Below are positions 619 through 17,635 of a stretch of 25,129 nucleotides of DNA, one piece after another. The position numbers and the translations under genes are program-made. The DNA comes from a virus. The notes beneath the pieces were generated by a model. The model was not told the DNA's origin and searched no databases. It was given only the letters and a program-made list of their open reading frames with translations. The first letter of the stretch is position 1. Each line of letters starts with the position of its first letter. Location of the stretch: IMG/VR virus record IMGVR_UViG_3300035670_001170, positions 1-25,129 of that record; one strand, 5' to 3'.

Positions 619-810
619 TCATTGTTTCACCACATTGATCTTGATCCCGCTCACGGTCAGCTGTCCCTTTTTGTCCGTGGAATGGGTCAGCCATTTCAGC
701 AATTCGCCTTTGACCATGTTCCAGCCATCGGCATCTATCGTGATGCTTTTGATGCCCATCCTCACCATGCGGGCGCAGGTTTTAAGGATTTCCTCACCGT
801 CCATATTCAT
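619..810 (-). CDS. Small hypothetical protein, last gene of the leftward operon
   Basis: A 63-residue protein, MNMDGEEILKTCARMVRMG and onward, with no recognised domain. Its start overlaps the stop of the preceding gene (807-1172) by 4 nt (ATGA type), so it is translationally coupled to it. A GAGGATGAGCAATG context places a GAGG Shine-Dalgarno 7 nt before the ATG. Its stop lies 3 nt from the end of the endolysin gene on the other strand, so the two transcripts converge without a spacer. It lies downstream of the last recognisable attC site. It could be phage backbone or the remains of a terminal cassette. Confidence 0.6.
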   Translation of the reverse strand: MNMDGEEILKTCARMVRMGIKSITIDADGWNMVKGELLKWLTHSTDKKGQLTVSGIKINVVKQ

Positions 811-1172
811 TGCTCATCCTCCTTTGGTTCTTCAATCCTGTTTCCTACTACTTCTATCTCCGATGGATGGAGCCTAAACACCCCACCCCACCTGACGAAA
901 AACTTTGTACTCTCGTGGTAGCTGGCGATAGTCCACTCGCCACGAATTTTGATCCAGTACAGGCCGCTAGATAGTTTCATCATTTCCGGCTTCATCGTAT
1001 GTTGGGCTATGCTTTGTTTAAACCGCTTCAATTCTGCTACTAGCTCTTCTAGTTGATCTATAAACCCTTCGAGCTCGCCACCCTTGAAAAACACCTCCTC
1101 TACATATTCACCTGTGTCAAAGCCTACTTCTACACACTTCCCATTTATTGGGTATCTTGTTGTGATGTTCAT
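807..1172 (-). CDS. Hypothetical protein with central coiled-coil-like helix
   Basis: A 121-residue protein of unknown family. Residues about 33-55 (GELEGFIDQLEELVAELKRF) look like an amphipathic or coiled-coil helix. The C-terminal half (LYWIKIRGEWTIASYHESTK) looks like a small beta domain with aromatic residues. Such small proteins are common in phage early regions, but I do not recognise this one. It starts inside the stop codon of the 56-residue ORF upstream (TGA/ATG overlap) and overlaps the next gene, forming a coupled three-gene block. The block follows attC site A on the same strand. Confidence 0.65.
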   Translation of the reverse strand: MNITTRYPINGKCVEVGFDTGEYVEEVFFKGGELEGFIDQLEELVAELKRFKQSIAQHTMKPEMMKLSSGLYWIKIRGEWTIASYHESTKFFVRWGGVFRLHPSEIEVVGNRIEEPKEDEQ

Positions 1173-1339
1173 CTTTTCATTTCCTTTTCTGCTATGTATT
1201 TTTTATGTGCGTCTAGTACCACTGCATCCAAGCATCCAGCACAGTCGATACGGCCACAATTCCGACTGAGGCACATTGTTGGGTGGTGCTCTAGATCATG
1301 TATCATTCCGCTATTCACCTCTTCATACCATCGTTCCAT
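1169..1339 (-). CDS. Small Cys-containing protein (56 aa) directly after the cassette array
   Basis: I read this ORF directly: it begins MERWYEEVNSGMIHDLEHHP and carries a CLSRNCGRIDCAGC cluster of four Cys, a possible metal site. It is coupled to the next gene by a TGA/ATG overlap at 1169-1172. A GCGAGGAA Shine-Dalgarno sits 7 nt before the ATG. That leader is nearly identical to the leader of the HNH cassette, which also follows directly on an attC core. So this gene either opens a sixth cassette lacking a recognisable attC, or is the backbone gene where the array was inserted. Confidence 0.7.
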   Translation of the reverse strand: MERWYEEVNSGMIHDLEHHPTMCLSRNCGRIDCAGCLDAVVLDAHKKYIAEKEMKR

Positions 1340-1355
1340 AAAATTCCTCGCATCA

Positions 1356-1440
1356 GCCTAACGCTTAGTTGTGCTGCGCTTGCGTCTAGAGCCAATTGCG
1401 CAGAGACGCAAGCAAGTGTCAGCACCAACGGTTGTTAGCC
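1356..1440 (-). other. attC site A (85 bp), end of cassette 5
   Basis: Read on the minus strand it begins GGCTAAC (R'', imperfect) and ends GTTAGGC (R'). The L'' box GTTGGTGCTG pairs with L' CAGCACAAC, leaving one G unpaired. This is the extrahelical-base signature of attC hairpins. An inner stem GCTTGCGTCT/AGACGCAAGC closes a 16-nt variable terminal loop. The R'' box has one change that breaks a pair with R'. It lies 16 nt after the stop of the 72-residue cassette gene. Confidence 0.9.
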
Positions 1441-1456
1441 TTCAAACTGTAAACCT

Positions 1457-1675
1457 TCACCACCTTTTTTCATATTCTTTACCACACCAAGGGCAGTAAG
1501 TTGGAAACACACAAACCAGCTTATCTTTCCCCCATGTTCCATCTTTTTTCTTGATTGCAACATACGCTCCAAGTTTTGGCAGAACTCGCCCCGTAAACAG
1601 CAATACAGTATCTAGAACCATTTTCTCTTGATCCGTATTGTTTCTGTTTTGTAGCTCTGTTATGCAGTCACACAT
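1457..1675 (-). CDS. Cassette 5 gene: small Cys-motif protein (72 aa)
   Basis: Starts MCDCITELQNRNNTDQEKMV with CxC at residues 2-4 and ends with YCPWCGKEYEKRW, a CxxC with Cys at 61 and 64. Together these could bind one zinc. A central KKKDGTWGKDKLVCVFPTY segment looks like beta strands. It resembles small zinc-ribbon proteins found in many phage genomes, but no named family is claimed. Shine-Dalgarno AAGGAG lies 9 nt before the ATG, inside the cassette leader that follows attC site B. It is the only gene between sites B and A. There is no promoter in the cassette, so expression should depend on transcription from the right. Confidence 0.75.
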   Translation of the reverse strand: MCDCITELQNRNNTDQEKMVLDTVLLFTGRVLPKLGAYVAIKKKDGTWGKDKLVCVFPTYCPWCGKEYEKRW

Positions 1676-1692: not shown

Positions 1693-1746
1693 GCCTAACG
1701 CTAAGTTAAGGCGCAACTGTGTTGTCGCCTTCAACGATTGTTAGGT
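1693..1746 (-). other. attC site B (54 bp), end of cassette 4
   Basis: Minus-strand R'' ACCTAAC and R' GTTAGGC match the consensus RYYYAAC and GTTRRRY. L'' GTTGAAGGCG pairs with L' CGCCTTAAC with one G left out, and the terminal loop is 12 nt. The cassette gene (1706-2044) reads through R'' and L'' and stops in L', so the attC encodes the protein's last residues. Confidence 0.92.
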
Positions 1747-2044
1747 TGTTCCCTTTTATACGTTGACCACACAAACTGCAATAGTTCTCGCCTCTCGAAT
1801 TAACGACTTGGTTGCATCGAGGACACATTTCAATAGTAAAGTTAATCGTCCCATCTGATAGATTAGGATGCACCACCTCTGCGGCATCATTCCCGTACCA
1901 TTTTGATCTACAATTACACGCATTCGTGAAGGCTTGTAGGCATTCCACCATAAATTGGCGCAAAATGAAGTCAGGTGTGTTTGACTCGTTTTCTTTGCTG
2001 TGTCTGTTTAGCAATGATTCCAGTTCTTCTTCAAATTTGCTCAT
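1706..2044 (-). CDS. Cassette 4 gene: zinc-ribbon phage-type protein (112 aa)
   Basis: The N-terminal half contains TPDFILRQFMVECLQAFTNA followed by a KWYG motif. This pattern recurs in small hypothetical proteins of many siphophages and podophages. The C-terminal half has CPRC (Cys 74, 77) and CSLCGQ (Cys 89, 92), a four-Cys zinc ribbon. The function is unknown. The last residues (LTIVEGDNTVAP) are encoded by attC site B, so this gene and its attC are physically fused. Shine-Dalgarno AAGGATG precedes the ATG. A phage-typical gene in an integron cassette suggests cassettes are assembled from phage genes. Confidence 0.8.
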   Translation of the reverse strand: MSKFEEELESLLNRHSKENESNTPDFILRQFMVECLQAFTNACNCRSKWYGNDAAEVVHPNLSDGTINFTIEMCPRCNQVVNSRGENYCSLCGQRIKGNNLTIVEGDNTVAP

Positions 2045-2066
2045 AGTAGCTCATCCTTTTTAATCA

Positions 2067-2118
2067 ACCTAACGCAGAGGCAAGCCGTGCGTAGCATCGG
2101 CTTCACCGTCTGTTAGGT
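2067..2118 (-). other. attC site C (52 bp), end of cassette 3
   Basis: Minus-strand R'' ACCTAAC and R' GTTAGGT are exact inverse cores. L'' GGTGAAGCCG pairs with L' CGGCTTGCC, with one extrahelical G and one T-G wobble. The loop is 10 nt. The stop codon of the DUF7448-like gene lies in R''. It is the shortest site of the array. Confidence 0.9.
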
Positions 2119-2511
2119 GCTGGCGGTTAAAGGTTTAGCAACACATTCAAAATCAACCGACTCCGAATAAAATCCGTCTGATTCACCAAACCACCGAATT
2201 GTCACATATCCGTTTATTGTGGCGAACTTGTAAAAAGTCCATGTTTCGCTTCCGTATTCATCTGCCTCATGTCCTTCTGGTGGTTCTTGGCTACATTCTT
2301 CTGCCATCAACAAAGGTGCGCCAACAAGATCCGAAAGATCACCGCAAATATCGTCAATGTTTACGGATTCGCAACAATCTTGTTCATGAAACATTTTGTA
2401 CTGCGCCCCATCAGAGCAAGTAAACAAGATTTCATCGCTTCCGTTTTGTTTGCAAGCGGTTAATGTTTTGCCAAGCAATTCGGAAACATTGCATCTGTCG
2501 CTGTATCCCAT
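2113..2511 (-). CDS. Cassette 3 gene: DUF7448-like protein (132 aa)
   Basis: The central block, with SDEILFTCSDGAQYKMFH, then QDCCESVNIDDICGDLSDL, then GAPLLMAEECS, and the later TWTFYKFATINGYVTIRW and SESVDFE, is the pattern I associate with DUF7448. That is a family of unknown function common in phages. This is recall and has not been searched. The protein starts with GYSDRCNVSELLGKTL, and the fold looks all-beta. The Shine-Dalgarno CGGAGAATGAAA precedes the ATG. The TAA stop lies inside the R'' core of attC site C. Confidence 0.8.
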   Translation of the reverse strand: MGYSDRCNVSELLGKTLTACKQNGSDEILFTCSDGAQYKMFHEQDCCESVNIDDICGDLSDLVGAPLLMAEECSQEPPEGHEADEYGSETWTFYKFATINGYVTIRWFGESDGFYSESVDFECVAKPLTAST

Positions 2512-2543: not shown

Positions 2544-2620
2544 ACCTAACGCCAAGTTGTGCCGCCAACTTTGCATCAATTTATGGTCTCAAAGTTGGTC
2601 GGCACCAACGTCTGTTAGAC
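2544..2620 (-). other. attC site D (77 bp), end of cassette 2
   Basis: Minus-strand R'' GTCTAAC and R' GTTAGGT. L'' GTTGGTGCCG pairs with L' CGGCACAAC with one extrahelical G. An inner 9-bp stem CCAACTTTG/CAAAGTTGG, offset by an unpaired A, closes a 16-nt loop. The HNH gene runs 32 nt into the site and takes its last ten codons from it. Confidence 0.93.
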
Positions 2621-3073: not shown

Positions 3074-3151
3074 GCCTAACGCTTAGTTGTGCTGCAAGCT
3101 CGGCACTACTTTATTGATCTCCGAGCTTGTCAGCACCAACGCCTGTTAGGT
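3074..3151 (-). other. attC site E (78 bp), end of cassette 1
   Basis: Minus-strand R'' ACCTAAC and R' GTTAGGC. L'' GTTGGTGCTG pairs with L' CAGCACAAC with one extrahelical G. An inner stem CAAGCTCGG/CCGAGCTTG (9 bp) closes a 17-nt loop, with an unpaired A below it. The upstream gene stops 1 nt before the site. Confidence 0.93.
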
Positions 3152-3152
3152 A

Positions 3153-3311
3153 CTATTTTAATTTACCTTTTCGTCCTTGCTTGTTGCAAATTTCCTCGCT
3201 GGTCATTCCCAGTATTTTCCCATCTGGTTTGCACCAAGGATCATCAACAACTTTACATTTAGTTGCGTCTAACTTGCAGTATTCAGCGTGTTTGCAGTTG
3301 CAGCTGTTCAT
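3153..3311 (-). CDS. Cassette 1, third gene: Cys-rich small protein (52 aa)
   Basis: From the ATG at 3311 the product is MNSCNCKHAEYCKLDATKC and onward: five Cys in the first 19 residues and two more later. It ends in a basic tail (QGRKGKLK). The frame is also open upstream to 3407, but that part lies within the preceding gene. The ATG at 3311 has a GAGAAG site 5 nt before it and gives a 29-nt overlap. It may be a small metal-binding protein; the family is unknown. It stops 1 nt before attC site E. Confidence 0.55.
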   Translation of the reverse strand: MNSCNCKHAEYCKLDATKCKVVDDPWCKPDGKILGMTSEEICNKQGRKGKLK

Positions 3312-3480
3312 GTAGCTTCTCAATTTCAACCTCAATCCTGAATGTTTCTCCAGCATAATCGCAATCCCAATCCCCAAATTTTGCAAGACATCTTTCGGCT
3401 TGGGCAATTACCATTCTTTTTGTGAGCATAAGATTTTCAATCTTAAGTAAAATCACTTTATTATCATTCATCATGTTCAT
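3283..3480 (-). CDS. Cassette 1, second gene: small helical protein (65 aa)
   Basis: The product reads MNMMNDNKVILLKIENLMLT and onward, ending EVEIEKLHEQLQLQTR, and looks mostly helical with a coiled-coil-like C terminus. An AAGG site before 3480 fits best with the third Met (3474), so the real start may be two codons later. It overlaps the preceding gene's stop (ATGAATGA type) and the next gene's start, so cassette 1 is a three-gene mini-operon. No family is recognised. The segment is very AT-rich. Confidence 0.6.
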   Translation of the reverse strand: MNMMNDNKVILLKIENLMLTKRMVIAQAERCLAKFGDWDCDYAGETFRIEVEIEKLHEQLQLQTR

Positions 3481-3655
3481 CCTTGAAATTTTTGCAGGTT
3501 GTTATGTCTTGATTCCTCATAGCCATAGAGTATAGCAAACACCAGTGATCTTCTTTGAAAATGCAACACATACAGGATGCGGTGTATTTTTTTGCCTTTG
3601 TAAAATTTTTCCTAGAAATCATACCATTTTTCCTTAATATAAGGTTTACACTCAT
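3464..3655 (-). CDS. Cassette 1, first gene: small Cys-containing protein (63 aa)
   Basis: The first gene after the array boundary, with a strong Shine-Dalgarno (GAGGAGG) 7 nt before the ATG. It is basic at the N terminus (RKNGMISRKNFTKAKKY) and has CMCC, then C at DHWCLLY and C at TTCKNF, so five Cys in 63 residues. No family is recognised. The G+C content is the lowest in the window, which suggests a different origin from the backbone. Confidence 0.6.
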   Translation of the reverse strand: MSVNLILRKNGMISRKNFTKAKKYTASCMCCIFKEDHWCLLYSMAMRNQDITTCKNFKDEHDE

Positions 3656-3689
3656 TTTACATCCTCCTCAATCCAACCGAAGGTTGTGT

Positions 3690-3696
3690 ACCTAAC
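3690..3696 (-). other. Upstream boundary of the cassette array (lone R'-type core GTTAGGT)
   Basis: On the minus strand GTTAGGT stands 15 nt after the stop of the zinc-protein gene (3712-3966), without an L' box or R'' partner upstream. Cassettes begin with TTRRRY after the cut G, so this is what the start of the first inserted cassette should look like at an attI or at a secondary G|TT target. The left flank (TTTAGATATGTGGGTG on the minus strand) belongs to the phage backbone. Composition becomes AT-rich just after this point. Confidence 0.65.
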
Positions 3697-5414: not shown

Positions 5415-5786
5415 CTAGAATGGCAGATCGTTGTCGTCGGTCGTGTTGTACGCATCAGCCTTGGCCTTGCTGTGGGCGGATTGGGCTGGGGTCAGATTGG
5501 CCTTGGCTTGGGCGTGGTCTAGCTCCTCCATGATGGCATGATGGATGGCCTCACGCCCCTCCTTGGTGATCGAGAAGGCGATGTCCGTGTATTCCTTCGG
5601 AATCTTGGCCTTGGCTTTTTCGCTGTCCGTAGCCTTTCGGCTGGGCATTGAGATGAATAACCCCTTGCTTCCGTTGATGACACGGATGTCACGGATCAGT
5701 AGCCAGCCATCTACGGTGATGGTAGCGTATGCCGCTAGATTTCCGGCATTGTTCATTTTTACGACTGTCGCTTTGATGTCCATCAT
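5415..5786 (-). CDS. SpoVG-family DNA/RNA-binding protein with SSB-like acidic C-terminal tip
   Basis: Residues 2-75 follow the SpoVG pattern: a strand ending in ATITVDGWLLIRDIRVINGS, then KGLFISMPSRK, then a region equivalent to the family's D-I-A-F-S-I end. SpoVG proteins bind nucleic acid in bacteria and occur in phages near recombination genes. After a low-complexity Ala/Lys/Gln linker, the protein ends DDNDLPF, very like the acidic D-D-I-P-F tip by which SSB proteins recruit partners. This, and the place next to ERF and before RusA, suggests it serves as the phage single-strand binding protein. The start overlaps the ERF stop (ATGA), with an AAGGAG site. Confidence 0.8.
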   Translation of the reverse strand: MMDIKATVVKMNNAGNLAAYATITVDGWLLIRDIRVINGSKGLFISMPSRKATDSEKAKAKIPKEYTDIAFSITKEGREAIHHAIMEELDHAQAKANLTPAQSAHSKAKADAYNTTDDNDLPF

Positions 5787-6328
5787 TTCGCTCCTTTAGC
5801 TTCGTTGTAAATTGCCTTGCGTTCACCAGCTGGGACATCCCCAGCGGTCTCGTATCCATGCAAGCCGAGGGCGTCGATACCACGCTGACCGAGTGCGTCC
5901 ATGGCCTTGATGAATCGGGCTGTCTCATCGTCTGGTCGGCTCATAGCCCGCTCACCATCATCGTCCTCGTCCGATCCGATGCAGGCGATGGCCTGCAGGG
6001 CGTACCGACGGAGGTAGGTCGTGGCTGACCCGATGGCCTGTGGATCGGTTTTTCCCAGCTGGCAAGATATCACATCGCCCAGCCATTGGCCTGATGTGTG
6101 GATCAGGCGGGTCTCCACCGCCATCACCGAGCCATCCAGCCGAGGCGATTGAATCACAGCGATGCCGTGGGCATTCAGGTGCGGGAGCGTTGCGTCTATG
6201 ACTGCTGGCAGATCGGCATATCGGCTCCGGAAATGGGGATTGGTTGCGCCCTTGTGGGCGTGGCTCATGGCCGCTTGGGCTTTGGCGAGTGCCGCAGCAA
6301 TCTGGTCTATACCTTCGCTTGCTTGCAT
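5783..6328 (-). CDS. erf: ERF-family single-strand annealing recombinase
   Basis: This 181-residue protein shows the ERF core. KGATNPHFRSRYADLPAVID (residues about 27-46) is followed by LPHLNAHGIAVIQSP and then by GSATTYLRRYALQAIACIG near residue 102. ERF proteins anneal complementary DNA strands during phage recombination and genome circularisation. An acidic DEDDDGE stretch follows and links to a small C-terminal domain. The start has GGAG 8 nt upstream and overlaps a 55-residue ORF by 22 nt. It is the first recognisable gene of the recombination set in the leftward operon. Confidence 0.9.
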   Translation of the reverse strand: MQASEGIDQIAAALAKAQAAMSHAHKGATNPHFRSRYADLPAVIDATLPHLNAHGIAVIQSPRLDGSVMAVETRLIHTSGQWLGDVISCQLGKTDPQAIGSATTYLRRYALQAIACIGSDEDDDGERAMSRPDDETARFIKAMDALGQRGIDALGLHGYETAGDVPAGERKAIYNEAKGAK

Positions 6329-7548: not shown

Positions 7549-8544
7549 ATGGAAGAGGAAAACGACAGTACACTCAAAGCCCCATTTCCTTGGTTCGGGG
7601 GAAAGAGCAAGGCCGCTTCGCTCATCTGGTCTAGGATCGGCTCCGACATCGGAAACTATGTCGAGCCTTTTTTTGGCTCTGGTGCGGTGTGGCTCGGTCG
7701 CCCTGCCGAGTTCAGCGGCTGGGCCACGGCAAACGATCTGGACGGTCTAGTGGTCAACTTCTGGAGGTCGGTGCAACTGTCTCCTGACGAGACAGCGGAG
7801 GCCGCTTGCCACCCTGTTTTTGAAGCCGACCTACACGCTCGGCATCTGGCTCTAGTCAATGTGAAAGACCAGCTCCAAGGCCGTCTCATGGCCGATCATT
7901 GCTACCATGACCCTGTGTTGGCAGGGTGGTGGGCGTGGGGTGCTTGCGTCTGGATCAGGGGCGGGTGGTGCAGGGGCGATGGGCCGTGGAGGAATGTGGG
8001 CGGGATTTTTCAGAAGGCTGGTGCGGGTGATGGTGGTGTTAGACGCAAGCTCCCGCATCTGGGCAATGGCACGGGCGTGAACCGTCAGCTCCCGCATCTG
8101 GGCAATGGCACGGGCGTGAACGAGGCACGGCTGGAGTGGATCAAATCATGGTTTGCCGACCTGCAAGATTCCCTCCAGCCTCTTCGCCTCGCCTGCGGGG
8201 ACTGGAGCCGGATCATGTCGGTGGGTACGATGACCCGCAACGGAGTGGCGGGCGTGGTGCTTGATCCGCCATACAGCCAGACGGATGCGGTCTACAACAG
8301 GGACAGCTCCACCGTGGCTCATGCGGTCAGGGAATGGGCCAAGGCCAACGGCAACAACAAAGCCCTGCGTATAGCCCTATGCGGGCATGAGGGCGAACAT
8401 AACGAGCTGGAGGCAATGGGCTGGACGGTGGAGACATGGGACAAATCAGGCGGCTATCAGGGCGCAGACGACCGAGAGCGCATCTGGTTCAGCCCGCACT
8501 GCATCGCAGAGAAAAAGGGGGTGGAACAGATCGCAATGTTTTAG
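7549..8544 (+). CDS. dam: DNA adenine methyltransferase (D12 class, Dam-like)
   Basis: The 331-residue protein has the D12 N6-adenine methylase order. The S-adenosylmethionine-binding start PFPWFGGKSKA (12-22) is followed by VEPFFGSGAVWLG (38-50), then ANDLD (61-65) and the catalytic DPPY (239-242). The target-recognition region around 120-195 is unusual in carrying a 13-residue tandem repeat (KLPHLGNGTGVN type, 166-191). Phage adenine methylases protect DNA from host restriction and can time packaging or expression. No cognate nuclease is adjacent, so it looks like an orphan enzyme. The starting ATG lies 7 nt after the previous stop. Confidence 0.92.
   Translation: MEEENDSTLKAPFPWFGGKSKAASLIWSRIGSDIGNYVEPFFGSGAVWLGRPAEFSGWATANDLDGLVVNFWRSVQLSPDETAEAACHPVFEADLHARHLALVNVKDQLQGRLMADHCYHDPVLAGWWAWGACVWIRGGWCRGDGPWRNVGGIFQKAGAGDGGVRRKLPHLGNGTGVNRQLPHLGNGTGVNEARLEWIKSWFADLQDSLQPLRLACGDWSRIMSVGTMTRNGVAGVVLDPPYSQTDAVYNRDSSTVAHAVREWAKANGNNKALRIALCGHEGEHNELEAMGWTVETWDKSGGYQGADDRERIWFSPHCIAEKKGVEQIAMF
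8044..8121 (+). repeat. 39-bp tandem repeat (two copies) inside the methyltransferase gene
   Basis: Two in-frame 39-bp units at 8044-8082 and 8083-8121 differ only near their 5' ends (CGCAAGCTCC against CGTCAGCTCC). They encode RKLPHLGNGTGVN and RQLPHLGNGTGVN. Related HLG-type repeats occur at the same place in other phage D12 methylases, as I recall. Copy number can vary by slippage and could alter target recognition. Confidence 0.9.
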
Positions 8545-11856: not shown

Positions 11857-12255
11857 ATGGCAGACCAAAAACGCAAAGTCGGTCGTCCCTCAACTTATGA
11901 TCCAGCCTACTGCGATCGTATCATTGAATTTGCCAGAGAGGGAAAACTACCAGAACAATGGGCCGCAAGGCTTGGTACGACAAAGCAGAGCCTGCATAAT
12001 TGGGCCGACGAACATCCAGAATTTTTTGACGCATTTCAAAGGGCGAAGCTCCTTTCTCAGGAATGGTGGATGAATCTGGCCCAGACCCAAGCCCTCAATC
12101 CATCGGCTCAATACAATTTCAATGCCGTAAAATTCATGCTATCAGCCGCATTCGGAATGCGTGAGGGAACCGATGTAAAGCAAGAAATTTCAGGTGCGAA
12201 CGGTGGGCCTGTGTCTCATTCCGTGAGCGTCCAATTCGTGGAGCCTCCCAAGTGA
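11857..12255 (+). CDS. terS: Terminase small subunit
   Basis: The ATG at 11857 is used because the open frame further left overlaps the promoter. The 132-residue protein begins with a basic KRKVGRPSTYDPAYCDRIIE. An HTH follows (GKLPEQWAARLGTTKQSLHN), then WADEHPEFFDAFQRAK, the usual order in phage small terminases. The small subunit recognises the packaging site and feeds DNA to the large subunit. The next gene begins in its stop codon. Confidence 0.88.
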   Translation: MADQKRKVGRPSTYDPAYCDRIIEFAREGKLPEQWAARLGTTKQSLHNWADEHPEFFDAFQRAKLLSQEWWMNLAQTQALNPSAQYNFNAVKFMLSAAFGMREGTDVKQEISGANGGPVSHSVSVQFVEPPK

Positions 12256-13484
12256 CAGCCGCACCAGCCTTGCAGATGCCGCAATGGTCTAGAGACCTTT
12301 GGGGCGATTATCGCTATTTCGTGGCCTACGGTGGTCGTGGTGGCGGGAAGTCTTGGGCCATCGCCCGCTTCCTTTTGTTGCTTGGGGCATCAAAGCCAAT
12401 CAGGGTGCTTTGTGCGAGAGAGCTACAGGTATCCATCCAAGAGAGTGTTCACAAGTTGCTGGCCGATCAGGTGGATGCCTTGGGCCTTGGTGCGTTGTAC
12501 GAGGTCTTGCAGACGGAGATCAGGGCGAAGAACGGAACGGAGTTTATCTTCAGCGGGATCAGAAACAACCCAACGAAGATAAAAAGTATGGAAGCGATTG
12601 ATTTCTGCTGGATTGAAGAGGCTGAAAAAGTCTCGAACAGCTCATGGGAGATATTGATCCCAACGATCCGCAAGCCCGACAGCCGTATCATCATTTCGTT
12701 CAACCCATCGGAGAAATCCGACCCGACCTATCAGCGGTTCATCGCATCCAACCCTCCCAAAACCATAGTCAAAAAGGTATCATGGCGAGATAATCCGTGG
12801 TTCCCCGAAGAGCTTGCCGCAGAGCGTGATTATCTGGCGAAGGTTGACCCCGATGCTCATTCCCATATCTGGGAAGGAGAGCCTGTCTCACGCTCCGACA
12901 CGCAAGTATTCCGTGGTCGGTGGAGGATTGAATCATTTGAACCGAAAGCGGATTGGGATGGGCCTTATTTCGGTTTGGACTTTGGCTTTGCTCAAGACCC
13001 ATCGCATGGCGTGGAGGTCTGGAAGCATGGATCCACTCTCTATTTCCGGCACGAGGTTCGTGGTGTGGGTGTCGATATTGACCGACTGCCGGAAATGCTT
13101 TTACGCCTCGGAGAAAAGGCTTGTGAACGCCCTATCAGGTGCGACAACGCAAGACCCGAGACGATAAGCTATCTGCAACGGCACGGCTACTCTAGGGCCA
13201 TCGGATGCCGCAAGTGGCCCAACAGCGTAGAGGATGGCGTGGCGTGGCTCCGATCCCATGAGCTGGTGATACATCCCGATTGCCGACACCTCGCAGACGA
13301 GGCTAGGCTTTATTCGCACAAGGTGGACAGGCTCACAGGCGACATCCTGCCGGAGATCGTGGACGCAAATAACCACGGCTGGGACGCTGTGCGTTATGCT
13401 TTGGAGCCTCTTATCTTCGGTGAGCGGGACGGTTTAGTAAACAAAAATCTGGCGACCTTCGGGAAGTCAAGAGGGCGCATTTGA
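12252..13484 (+). CDS. terL: Terminase large subunit (PBSX/Terminase_3-type)
   Basis: It starts with GTG at 12252, overlapping the terS stop by 4 nt. The 410-residue motor-nuclease has Walker A GGRGGGKS (27-34), Walker B-like FCWIEEAE (118-125) and the coupling motif IISFNP (147-152). The nuclease domain has Asp 243 in YFGLDFGFAQDP and Asp 298 in CDNARPE. It pumps DNA into the prohead through the portal and cuts it. The length is typical for the family. Confidence 0.95.
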   Translation: MTAAPALQMPQWSRDLWGDYRYFVAYGGRGGGKSWAIARFLLLLGASKPIRVLCARELQVSIQESVHKLLADQVDALGLGALYEVLQTEIRAKNGTEFIFSGIRNNPTKIKSMEAIDFCWIEEAEKVSNSSWEILIPTIRKPDSRIIISFNPSEKSDPTYQRFIASNPPKTIVKKVSWRDNPWFPEELAAERDYLAKVDPDAHSHIWEGEPVSRSDTQVFRGRWRIESFEPKADWDGPYFGLDFGFAQDPSHGVEVWKHGSTLYFRHEVRGVGVDIDRLPEMLLRLGEKACERPIRCDNARPETISYLQRHGYSRAIGCRKWPNSVEDGVAWLRSHELVIHPDCRHLADEARLYSHKVDRLTGDILPEIVDANNHGWDAVRYALEPLIFGERDGLVNKNLATFGKSRGRI

Positions 13485-15523
13485 TGGATGACAAAATTCA
13501 CGAAATCAGGGAAGCGATCAGCGAATATCAGGATGCCTACAGCTCCGACTATCAGGACATTCGGGATGATCTAGAGTTTGCCTCGCTCAAGCAGTGGGAA
13601 GTAGATGATGCCGACCGTCTGAATCTGGTGATGGATCACATCGGCAAGCATAAGAATTTGATCGTAAACCCCATTCGCTTGCACCCCTTCGGCTTCGGCA
13701 TCACAGCCGACGAGATGTTGACACCCGAAGATGTTTCCCGCATAAACGCCCATTTGGGCCGAATCCAGCAGGACGGCAACTTCTACTCCCAAGCCGCCCA
13801 AGCGATGGAGCACAGCGTACTTGGCGGGCGTGGCTTCATGATCGTGGGCGATGATTGGAAAACCTACAATGGTCTGCAAAAGAAAATCACTTTCACTTGC
13901 CCTCTTGACCCCACCAGCGTGTTCATTGACACCGCAAGCGAGAGCATTGACGGAAGCGATGCCGAGAACGCTGGGTTAATCGCCTACATGGGCGAGGCTC
14001 AAGCCAAGCGGCTTTTCGGTATTGAGGATTCAAAGGTTTGGGATGTCGTCCCATCTGGCCTAGTCATTCCGTCCGATTGCGTCCCTACGGTGAGCTACTG
14101 GAGTAGGGCAAGCGAGTCTAGGGATGTGGTTTACATCCAAACCGCCAAGGGCATCATCGGTATCTATGGTGAGGAATTGCTGGCTATGGGGCCGATCCCT
14201 GTGGAGGCGGTCGTTGGCACTCGCAAAGAGCGGGCTACCTATGTCAATTACACGCAGATCGTGGGCAATGAGATCATCAGCGAGGCAAAGATTGACAGTC
14301 CATTCATCCCCGTGGTTCCGTTCTATGGGGAGTCGTCCTATGTCGTGGAAGCGGGAGGCCTGAAGGTCAAGCGCAAAGGCCTAGTCTATCGTCTGCGGGA
14401 TACCCAGAAGCTCGTCAATCTTGGAGTGAGGGCCGAGGCCGAACGCCTTGACATGGCTCCGAAATCACCTTGGATCGCCACACCCAAACAGGTGCTTGGG
14501 AATGCCCAGATTGCAGAGATGTGGGAACGCTCCAACGAAGAGAACCGAGGCGTCCTGATCTACGAGCCGGATCCCAATGCACCAGCCCCACAGCGGGCGA
14601 ATACGAGCGCAGGCACAGCGGAAATCCAAGCCACCCGAAAGGGGATGCAAGCCGACATGAGCGAACAACTGGGCTATGGGGCGGTCAATTTCGGAGCTGG
14701 CAAAAACGAGGCTTCGGGCTTCGCCATCAGCCTCATGCAAGAGACAGCCGATTACCAGAGCGCAAGCTATGTGCAGAATTGGGAAGCGAGCGTTATTCAG
14801 GTCGGGCGTATTGTGTGCAATATGTACCCCAGCATCTACCCCGAAAAGATGCCTGTCAGCTTCGAGACCAAGTCCGGAAAGCAAGCAGGTTATGTCGGGC
14901 CTTCCGATATTTCCGGCAAGCTGAATGTCACGGTCGTGACGAGCGCAAGCTATCAGCAGAAACGCAGGCAAGGCTCACAAATCCTGTCCACCCTCGCAGG
15001 CCAAAGCCCCGACTTCATGTCTGCGATGGCTTATGACATCGTGCGGGATTCGGGTGTGAGTATCTCCGATGATGCTATGGAAATGCTCAAGCGGATGCGC
15101 CCAGCCCACCTTACAGGCGAGGGGCCTGATCCCGAAGCAATCAAGGTCATGGAACAGCAAGCCGCAACCATCCAAGAGCTACAACGCACGATGGAACAGT
15201 ACGAAGCCCTTATCGGTCAATTCCAAGCGAAGGAATTGGGCGATGACCGCAAGGCAAAAATCACCCTTGCCGGTAAAGTCATTGATTCCCAGACGCAAAT
15301 ATTGCTTGAGCAGATGAAGCAAGACGGCAAGATGGACGAATTGCAGGCTAAGAATATCGCCGACATTGTGGCGAAGATTTATGACAACAGTCTAAAAGAG
15401 GTTGAACTGGAGACTCAGCAAGGTGGTGTGAAGGTCAACTACACCAACCCGATGAGCGCATTCACCCCGATGGCGAGTGGCCCGCTCGTGGTCGGCAATC
15501 AAGGGCGACCGACGGCTGGATAG
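13484..15523 (+). CDS. Portal protein, P22-like
   Basis: The ATG at 13484 overlaps the terL stop (TGATG); a TTG one codon earlier is possible. The protein has about 679 residues, near the P22 portal (725). It begins DDKIHEIREAISEYQDAYSS then DYQDIRDDLEFASLKQW, as in P22-type portals. A long helical C-terminal region from about residue 550 (IKVMEQQAATIQELQRTMEQ) fits the barrel helix. Twelve copies form the DNA channel at one head vertex. It lies between terminase and scaffold, as expected. Confidence 0.88.
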   Translation: MDDKIHEIREAISEYQDAYSSDYQDIRDDLEFASLKQWEVDDADRLNLVMDHIGKHKNLIVNPIRLHPFGFGITADEMLTPEDVSRINAHLGRIQQDGNFYSQAAQAMEHSVLGGRGFMIVGDDWKTYNGLQKKITFTCPLDPTSVFIDTASESIDGSDAENAGLIAYMGEAQAKRLFGIEDSKVWDVVPSGLVIPSDCVPTVSYWSRASESRDVVYIQTAKGIIGIYGEELLAMGPIPVEAVVGTRKERATYVNYTQIVGNEIISEAKIDSPFIPVVPFYGESSYVVEAGGLKVKRKGLVYRLRDTQKLVNLGVRAEAERLDMAPKSPWIATPKQVLGNAQIAEMWERSNEENRGVLIYEPDPNAPAPQRANTSAGTAEIQATRKGMQADMSEQLGYGAVNFGAGKNEASGFAISLMQETADYQSASYVQNWEASVIQVGRIVCNMYPSIYPEKMPVSFETKSGKQAGYVGPSDISGKLNVTVVTSASYQQKRRQGSQILSTLAGQSPDFMSAMAYDIVRDSGVSISDDAMEMLKRMRPAHLTGEGPDPEAIKVMEQQAATIQELQRTMEQYEALIGQFQAKELGDDRKAKITLAGKVIDSQTQILLEQMKQDGKMDELQAKNIADIVAKIYDNSLKEVELETQQGGVKVNYTNPMSAFTPMASGPLVVGNQGRPTAG

Positions 15524-15538
15524 CCGGAAAGGATTACC

Positions 15539-16393
15539 ATGTCAGAGCAACTTGAGACAGTCAAGGAAACGGCAACGGAAACGACCAATCCCGAAGTCGT
15601 GCAATCCACCCAACAGGTGGAAGCCCAAAGCCAGCAACCCGAAGAGAAGCAGCCGTGGCAAGTCGCCATGGAAAGCTACGACAAGCGGATTGCAGACATT
15701 GAGGCGAAACATCAGGCCGAAATCCAACGGATGCAGCACGGAATGAATAAATCATTCGGCAAGCTCCGGAATCAGGTGGACACCTATCGCAAGATGATAG
15801 ATACCATCGTTCCAGAGCCGAAGCGTGAGCAGTTCACGGACGAGGCACAATTCCAGCAGGCGAAGAAAGTGGTAGAACCAATCCGCACCCAGTTCTCGCA
15901 ACTGGAGGAGCAGACACAAAGGGCCGAGCGTGAGGCGGTTGAGGCCGAACAACGGAACACCCTAGTCCAAAGCGTGGTGAGCAAGGTGAGTGCCTTGCCT
16001 GCCGAGCGGGCTGGGGAGATTTCCCAACGGTATCAACAGGCTTTGCAGATGGGTCAACAGATGGGCGTGGACATGGATGTGGACAACGACATCCTGCAGT
16101 TCGTTTCGTCCGTTGACAATGGGGCCGATGTGTTGGATGCGATCTACCAAAACCCGCAAACGGTCTTGACCCTCAAAGCTCAGCCGCTTATGGGAAAAAT
16201 TGCCATGTTGATGAACATCAGCAAGACAGCTCAAACTCTGCCATCGGTGACCCCATCGGCTCCGATTGCGGCACAAGCTACGGTATCGGAACCAGCCCGC
16301 CCCATCAAGACATCGGGGTCGGGCCTCAAGGCTCCGACATCGGCACGGACAGCGCAGGAGTATCTACAGATGCGACTCGCACAACGCAAATAA
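15539..16393 (+). CDS. Scaffolding protein
   Basis: The 284-residue, Gln/Glu/Lys-rich, mostly helical protein (MSEQLETVKETATETTNPEV and onward) has an acidic disordered start and long coiled-coil-like stretches (RTQFSQLEEQTQRAEREAVE). It ends basic, LQMRLAQRK. The size is close to the P22 scaffold (303), and the position between portal and coat supports the call. Scaffolds guide coat assembly and leave the prohead before DNA enters. AAGGA precedes the start. Confidence 0.8.
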   Translation: MSEQLETVKETATETTNPEVVQSTQQVEAQSQQPEEKQPWQVAMESYDKRIADIEAKHQAEIQRMQHGMNKSFGKLRNQVDTYRKMIDTIVPEPKREQFTDEAQFQQAKKVVEPIRTQFSQLEEQTQRAEREAVEAEQRNTLVQSVVSKVSALPAERAGEISQRYQQALQMGQQMGVDMDVDNDILQFVSSVDNGADVLDAIYQNPQTVLTLKAQPLMGKIAMLMNISKTAQTLPSVTPSAPIAAQATVSEPARPIKTSGSGLKAPTSARTAQEYLQMRLAQRK

Positions 16394-16411
16394 ACAACAA
16401 AAGGACACAAA

Positions 16412-17635
16412 ATGGCTACTATCCAAACCAGTTCGATCGTTCTCGGCCAAGTTGCCGAAATCCTCCACGACACCTCGTTCATGTACAAGAATGCGTACAA
16501 GAATGTGGGCAAGGACTTCACCCGCAACAGCGGTGACTCCATCACCATCCCCAAACCCCACCGTCCCGCTGTCGGCACTTCTGCTGACATGACTGGTACG
16601 AGTCGTACTATGGTGGAAAGCTCCACCACGCTGACGCTTGTGCGTCGCAATGCAGCTGTGGATCTCACCTCTGCCGAGATGACTTACAAGCTCGGTGGCG
16701 AGGATCTGTTGCGTGAGCGTGTGACCATGCCCTTGGCAAAGCGTCTGGCTCGTGAGATTGACCTTGTCGGCCTTGATTGCCTCAATAAAGCTGGTGGCAA
16801 GGTCGTTGGTCGTTCCGACTACACCAAGGCTCTGTCCTATGCCGAAGCCGCCCAGCTGAATGCCGCCCTCGGTCGTGGCCTAGCTCCTGAGGATGGCCGT
16901 GTGTGTGCTCTGTCCCATGACGATTGGGCTGGTGCAGCTGCCAACATGGCGAGCTACTTCAATCCCCAGACCGTCCTGTCCGACACGATGAAACGTGGTG
17001 GCGTGGCTGGTGATCTGGCTGGCATGATGTGGTATCCCACCGCCTCCGCTCCCAGCTTCACCATCGCTTGCGATGATGCCGTTGGTGCGATCAACGACGG
17101 TTCCATTGCCGAAGGTGACACCACGCTCGTCATGAACACGCTGGGCACTGGCAAAATCTATGCTGGCCAATCCTTCACCGTGGCCGACTGCTACGAGATT
17201 GACCCAGAGACCCAGACCAGCACCGGCAAGCTGTACCAGTTCGTTGTTGCCTCCGATGCGACCATCTCCGGCAATGCCGCCACCGTGACCGTGTGCCAAG
17301 CCATGTACACGACCACCACCGACCGCACCAAGGCGAACATGAACAGCCTGCCTGTCAACGGCAAGACTGTGACCTTCCTTGAGGGTGCGATCTCCAAGGC
17401 TGGCAAGCGCATCTTTGCATGGCATCCGAATGCGCTCTTGTTCGCTTCCGTGGATCTCTACAAGCCCAAGGCTGGTGTGCTGTCCGAGTCCATCTCCCTT
17501 GACGGCCTGAATATGCGCCTCGTGGACTACGGTGATGGCATCACCGACAGCTACGGCACTCGCTTGGATATCGAGTTTGGCTTTGCCGCCATCTATCCCG
17601 AGCTGATTGCTTCCACCGCTGGTCAGCTGATCTAA
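16412..17635 (+). CDS. Major capsid protein, P22 coat-like
   Basis: The 407-residue protein resembles the P22 gp5 coat family. It has an N-terminal arm SSIVLGQVAEILHDTSFMYK, then a GDSITIPKPHRP segment, and a long run through LTLVRRNAAVDLTSAEMTYK. The middle part has an Ig-like look (beta-rich, Thr/Val-rich, residues about 220-310), as P22 coat has an inserted domain. Codon choice is strongly biased to C-ending codons compared with neighbours, as expected for the most abundant product. An AAAAGGACAC leader precedes it, and a terminator follows the gene. Confidence 0.88.
   Translation: MATIQTSSIVLGQVAEILHDTSFMYKNAYKNVGKDFTRNSGDSITIPKPHRPAVGTSADMTGTSRTMVESSTTLTLVRRNAAVDLTSAEMTYKLGGEDLLRERVTMPLAKRLAREIDLVGLDCLNKAGGKVVGRSDYTKALSYAEAAQLNAALGRGLAPEDGRVCALSHDDWAGAAANMASYFNPQTVLSDTMKRGGVAGDLAGMMWYPTASAPSFTIACDDAVGAINDGSIAEGDTTLVMNTLGTGKIYAGQSFTVADCYEIDPETQTSTGKLYQFVVASDATISGNAATVTVCQAMYTTTTDRTKANMNSLPVNGKTVTFLEGAISKAGKRIFAWHPNALLFASVDLYKPKAGVLSESISLDGLNMRLVDYGDGITDSYGTRLDIEFGFAAIYPELIASTAGQLI

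Follow-up and report, generated by a model that had tools for sequence, protein, structure and literature searches.

Phage accessory genes in an integrase-less attC array of a P22-like virus record, and DUF7448 as a cassette in several phage contigs

An array of attC sites carrying phage-type accessory genes was found in a P22-like podovirus, and one of its gene families, DUF7448, is flanked by attC sites in this and six other phage contigs. The window, by which we mean the whole stretch of DNA analysed, is a linear virus record of 25,129 bases, which may be partial. The array differs in base composition from the phage backbone, its cargo has been replaced with respect to a sister phage, and another of the DUF7448-carrying contigs encodes a likely IntI-type integrase. 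The reading that we consider probable is that these cassettes belong to a pool circulating among phages, that an integron integrase working in trans would insert them and that they would be expressed by read-through from a phage operon.

The attC array and its cargo

The carrier was assigned as a P22-like podovirus by its gene content (Table 1), which also includes RusA and a DnaB-like helicase. On the minus strand, a single long operon-like run of genes extends from approximately 6.8 kb to 0.6 kb, with the array inside it. A DNA adenine methyltransferase-like gene (7549-8544) contains internal near-repeats (RKLPHLGNGTGVNRQLPHLGNGTGVNE), and more repeats are present in the copy of the sister phage.

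Between positions 1356 and 3151 the five attC sites are interspersed with small genes; they lie on the minus (gene) strand at spacings of 250-455 b, as in a CALIN (at least two attC at cassette spacing). All of them show R''/R' boxes of the form RYYYAAC...GTTRRRY, with one R'' mismatch in attC E, an imperfect stem and, on the gene strand, the canonical extra base (in L''). Sites were detected by R-box plus stem, a score of 7 or more being strict and the loosening of one R-box position relaxed. The strict search recovered four sites (expected 0.0 per Markov-simulated window) and the relaxed one added attC E, with a false expectation of about 0.45 per window, or about 0.5 per contig. When folded as single strands, the five sites were more stable than their shuffles (z -3.1 to -5.7). 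No match to attC was obtained in the window with Rfam. In the sister record (L097, 11677-11824), short tandem repeats within a replication gene (GGTTGAACGCAGGTTCAAC) mimic R boxes and set off the detector falsely.

That the sites might be chance inverted repeats or terminators is an explanation to which the false calls of the relaxed detector, and the fact that attC-like sites can act as terminators, lend some ground. It is largely refuted and now seems extremely improbable, given the strict expectation against the sites found, the depth of the folds, the canonical asymmetry in all five and the 93% conservation of attC B in the sister phage.

Neither intI nor attI was found in the window, where the integron integrase model TIGR02249 gave 0 matches. 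The array is therefore a phage CALIN, a kind already published, CALINs being present in both virulent and temperate phages (Qi et al. 2023, PMC9892861). The exact pattern of its long attC type had zero matches in 84,980 species genomes and, among viral contigs, was found in the sister phage only; the attC DNA of the window was also absent from the named phages and plasmids searched. Upstream, the array is bounded by a lone R-type box, a possible attI/attG-like entry point, followed by a 33-b leader common to the sister phage, in which a complete attC precedes it. This leader, with its CAACC-TTCG-GGTTG hairpin (window 3640-3696, minus strand; L097 7556-7600), is identical in the two phages and different ORFs come after it. 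An empty site was not found.

Table 1. Features of the window, with coordinates on its 25,129 bases
Feature	Positions	Strand	Details
Downstream flank	807..1360	-	Leader TTAGGCTGATGCGAGGAA, also present behind attC A, followed by ORFs of 54 and 121 aa; no additional attC
attC E, last of array	1356..1440	-	One mismatch in R''; fold z -3.3
72-aa cassette gene	1457..1675	-	Weak match to phrog_7033, E 8e-6
attC D, aadA-like short site	1693..1746	-	Fold z -4.1
Zinc-ribbon gene (TPDFIL...KWYG), 112 aa	1706..2044	-	N-terminus matches phrog_31227 (8e-11) and phrog_18819 (4e-9)
attC C	2067..2118	-	Fold z -3.8
DUF7448 gene, 132 aa	2113..2511	-	PF24240 E 9e-29, 100.4 bits (cut-off 27); phrog_2650 E 5e-48
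attC B	2544..2620	-	93% identical to a sister-phage attC that comes after an unrelated gene
HNH endonuclease gene, 154 aa	2589..3053	-	phrog_2118 E 3e-23
attC A	3074..3151	-	Fold z -5.4 (minus strand)
Cassette 1	3153..3689	-	Leader with CAACC-TTCG-GGTTG hairpin and three small ORFs (3464-3655, 3283-3480, 3153-3407)
Lone R-type box GTTAGGT	3690..3696	-	Upstream array boundary, then 33-b leader common to sister phage
Erf-like ssDNA annealing protein	5783..6328	-	phrog_2324 E 5.5e-36
Terminase large subunit	12252..13484	+	Relatives in 265 viral stretches
P22-like portal protein	13481..15523	+	
Major head protein	16412..17635	+	phrog_283 E 5.5e-41

The initial annotation had described a DUF7448-like gene, a TPDFIL...KWYG zinc-ribbon gene and an HNH gene as cassette cargo of phage type, and both points were borne out. 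The three genes alternate with the attC sites, the HNH gene lying just beyond the interval 1706-2511 to which that description referred, and they match PHROG profiles; relatives of DUF7448 were found in 104, of the TPDFIL domain in 29 and of HNH in 85 phage records. The C-terminus of the HNH protein (LTDVGADQL) is encoded by attC B. The zinc-ribbon protein carries TPDFIL at residues 23-28, KWYG at residues 48-51 and two CxxC pairs (CPRC and CSLC), and no Pfam zinc-ribbon model reached its cut-off; a single-protein search with it gave no matches, and a profile built for it retrieved 80 loci. The families present mainly in phages are thus those of DUF7448, TPDFIL and HNH, whereas the three ORFs of cassette 1 gave no convincing family with Pfam or PHROG profiles.

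DUF7448 and its recurrence as a cassette

DUF7448 is a viral family. The 104 isolate-phage records, obtained by tblastn, range over Bacillus, Escherichia/Salmonella and Pseudomonas phages, of which we take the Bacillus phages to be SPO1-like and the Escherichia/Salmonella phages to be T5-like, judging from names and genome sizes. In bacteria the family is rare, with 3 positive genomes among 398 Pseudomonadota and none among 14 controls. In named phages the gene stands among early genes; it adjoins nrdF, dUTPase and thyX in Bacillus phage KLEB27-1 and DUF551 in one Pseudomonas aeruginosa phage. The AlphaFold (AF2) model of the protein is mainly beta and fairly confident (pLDDT 81), with structural relatives spread over phages and giant viruses; no significant relative was found by a fold search of the PDB, so the fold yields no function.

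A profile search of genomes for DUF7448 gave 29 loci in bacterial or archaeal contigs, two of which (L102 and L103) had attC on both sides. Their candidacy as bacterial chromosomal cassettes was rejected, since the whole contigs, 41 and 42.5 kb long, encode portal, head and tail proteins and represent a pair of related phages. Each carries approximately seven attC, and the array genes include DUF7448 (in both), a DUF551-type gene and a methyltransferase. Among the 29 loci there was thus no clear case of a DUF7448 cassette in a bacterial chromosome. In these gamma and omni phages (L102, 5241-7314; L103, 5909-10553), the cassette genes oppose the canonical attC polarity yet run with the phage operon: the polarity is non-canonical at all gamma sites and at five of the seven omni sites, two being undecided, and attC-encoded tails such as HNVELTG were observed.

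The 80 closest relatives of DUF7448 in IMG/VR included five that were flanked immediately on both sides by attC (L149, L158, L160, L176 and L212), L158 being the same contig as L102. Phage hallmarks were encoded in the other carriers: TerL in G413 (L149), a head maturation protease in G414 (L160), TerL and portal in G415 (L176) and portal in G416 (L212). With the window, DUF7448 stands between attC in seven phage contigs, which represent six lineages when the related pair is counted once. The attC sequences and the GC content (0.37-0.62) vary among the carriers. Twelve of the 13 attC folded from the other arrays and the sister phage were more stable than shuffles (z -2.7 to -8.3), one G416 site having z -0.45. 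The array of G414 (L230, 11378-16377) has unusually long attC-like sites (54-133 b), cassettes of DUF7448 and a methyltransferase, and an adjoining XerA-like tyrosine recombinase.

As controls, none of 80 viral loci found with the zinc-ribbon (TPDFIL) profile was attC-flanked, and 80 terminase loci (909 kb) gave no convincing attC-flanked case; an array beside the terminase of L080, a single weak pair of non-canonical sequences, was judged to be chance. For five of 80 against none of the 160 pooled controls, with the L080 pair left out, the Fisher p was about 0.004, and against the TPDFIL set alone 0.06; both values are rough, as the IMG/VR loci are not fully independent. The attC-borne proteins were scattered over a tree built from 97 DUF7448 sequences (6 changes for 7 rows), a poorly resolved topology whose starred branches force only 2 changes.

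Shuttling between phages, as proposed in the initial annotation, would be expected to place one cassette gene in several phage contigs that are not related to each other, as observed for DUF7448. That part of the proposal is supported; the part given to the integrase does not follow from the window, which has none. Recurrence as a phage cassette holds for DUF7448 and not, in 80 loci, for the zinc-ribbon family. Homologues confined to bacterial chromosomal cassettes, which would have spoken against the idea, are not what was found, as DUF7448 is mostly in phages and all the attC-borne copies found here are in phage contigs.

Cargo turnover and candidate routes of exchange

The sister contig G001 (36,450 b; L096/L097) shares 43% protein identity with the window in the helicase and 67% in the MTase. 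It bears four attC of the same family at another location, just upstream of the common MTase gene, and different cassette genes, namely an 80-aa phrog_1578 protein, a 68-aa protein, a DNA methyltransferase and a 154-aa protein. Over 266 aa, the methyltransferase cassette shares 50% identity with that of G414, an AT-rich phage contig. The conservation of attC B exceeds that of the core MTase gene (73-79%), with unrelated genes on either side, and the attC plus leader blocks are 86-94% identical between the two phages, with unrelated ORFs in between. The GC content is 0.42 in the array and 0.54 in the backbone of the window; the corresponding values in the sister are 0.41 and 0.56. This difference is suggestive of imported cassettes. 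A second leader (TAATGCGAGGAA) is repeated after attC A, attC E and attC 3 of the sister.

Integron integrase models had no match in the window, in the record of the sister or in most of the carriers, some of these records being fragments. On G415 (L231) a likely IntI-type integrase of 342 aa is encoded at 15643-16671 on the minus strand, adjoining the DUF7448 cassette and near TerL and portal. It scored 212 bits to TIGR02249, below the cut-off of 265, with the integron-specific insertion region aligned, and its best PDB match was the Vibrio cholerae integrase labelled there as IntI4 (2a3v; 143 bits against 75 for Xer). Judged by these comparisons, G415 is likely a phage-borne integron with a divergent IntI; as this gene is near the DUF7448 cassette, a phage-borne IntI is a candidate mover in this group, the other being a host IntI. 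The recombinase beside the G414 array resembles XerA more than IntI and was for this reason left out of the integron integrases. Recombination of phage attC sites with IntI1 has been published (Qi et al. 2023, PMC9892861).

The phage accessory genes (DUF7448, TPDFIL zinc ribbon, HNH and small ORFs) form the cargo of the integrase-less attC cluster. We propose that the cassettes would be drawn from a pool circulating among phages, and that an integron integrase supplied in trans by the host or a co-infecting phage would place them through folded single-stranded attC. Read-through from the minus-strand early phage operon would express them. We infer the integrase step and the expression; a direction of transfer and any fitness benefit would likewise be matters of interpretation. 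Exchange of cassettes between phages is the best, though inferred, reading of the data as a whole.

Two features are not accounted for by a simple shuffling of cassettes: the leader travels with the attC, and different ORFs that end in a type-1 attC lie behind one and the same leader, as in both cassettes with the TTCG leader. Homology between window and sister crosses the R' cut point, in that attC A, attC E and a sister attC share the leader that follows them, so homologous recombination fits better here than free shuffling of cassettes. The Erf-like protein of the window is a candidate alternative shuffler of the attC repeats, and recombination between attC-leader blocks, aided by it, is a real alternative or additional route. 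In its full form, in which the array entered the phage once and the cargo was then swapped at these repeats and not by an integrase, it would account for the conserved blocks around unrelated ORFs. It leaves unexplained the presence of DUF7448 in arrays of other phages with unrelated attC sequences, and the retention of attC folding despite changed loop stems; we hold it to be possible and somewhat doubtful.

Capture of a bacterial chromosomal integron fragment, with genes that look phage-like because bacterial cassettes often hold such genes, was judged rather unlikely. Such fragments have been documented in Vibrio phages (PMC9892861), the array differs from the backbone in GC, and two of five genes in a control chromosomal array also matched PHROGs, so that such matches alone are no proof of phage origin. 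The viral distribution of DUF7448 argues against capture, as do its structural relatives in phages and giant viruses, the finding that the only two attC-flanked loci among the 29 are phage contigs, and the absence of the exact long attC pattern from the species genomes. Still less likely is that the cassettes constitute a counter-defence pool, in which the MTase would act against restriction and DUF7448, HNH and the zinc ribbon against other defences. Methyltransferase cassettes are present in the sister, omni and G414 arrays, and five MTases in phage cassettes led Qi et al. (2023, PMC9892861) to propose counter-defence; these enzymes are the only cassette cargo with a plausible anti-defence route, already proposed there. 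For the cargo of the window, PADLOC gave only a weak PtuB-type HNH similarity and no match to other defence or counter-defence models, and DUF7448, with no solved relative, stands beside nucleotide metabolism genes in the Bacillus phage.

Relation to known integrons and significance

The array shares with sedentary chromosomal integrons and mobile cassettes the single-ORF cassettes, the R''-L''-L'-R' layout of attC and attC that are alike within the array. Unlike these, the window has no intI or attI, its carrier is a phage and expression is presumably from a phage operon. Loot et al., in 2024, reportedly described attG-mediated integration of cassettes outside integrons; a likeness to it is that the window array starts at a lone GTTRRRY box and not at a full attI. 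With the phage CALINs of Qi et al. the array has in common attC without integrase in a phage genome, DNA methyltransferase cargo and no nearby helper integrase. It goes beyond them in its cargo, which is of phage accessory genes, in the recurrence of one family among the cassettes of several unrelated phages and in the cargo turnover seen in a sister; their main text (PMC9892861) mentions neither HNH nor a DUF family. Phage CALINs are thus known; in the open literature searched, no description was found of a phage gene family that turns up repeatedly as attC cassettes in phages unrelated to each other.

Tentatively, phages might pool and swap cassettes of phage genes during co-infection, some of them with their own IntI, and DUF7448 and methyltransferases might spread in this way as counter-defence, a proposal to which we give limited credence. 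As the same leader and attC type surround different phage ORFs, cassettes may also be formed in cassette-bearing phages. The usual view of integrons is that of a device which serves bacteria for resistance and adaptive genes, phages being carriers at most. A cassette gene of a viral family that recurs in unrelated phages indicates that phages may use this device for accessory genes of their own. DUF7448 and the named phage genomes provide concrete material with which to test the exchange of cassettes between phages, and offer an opening on the origin of gene cassettes.
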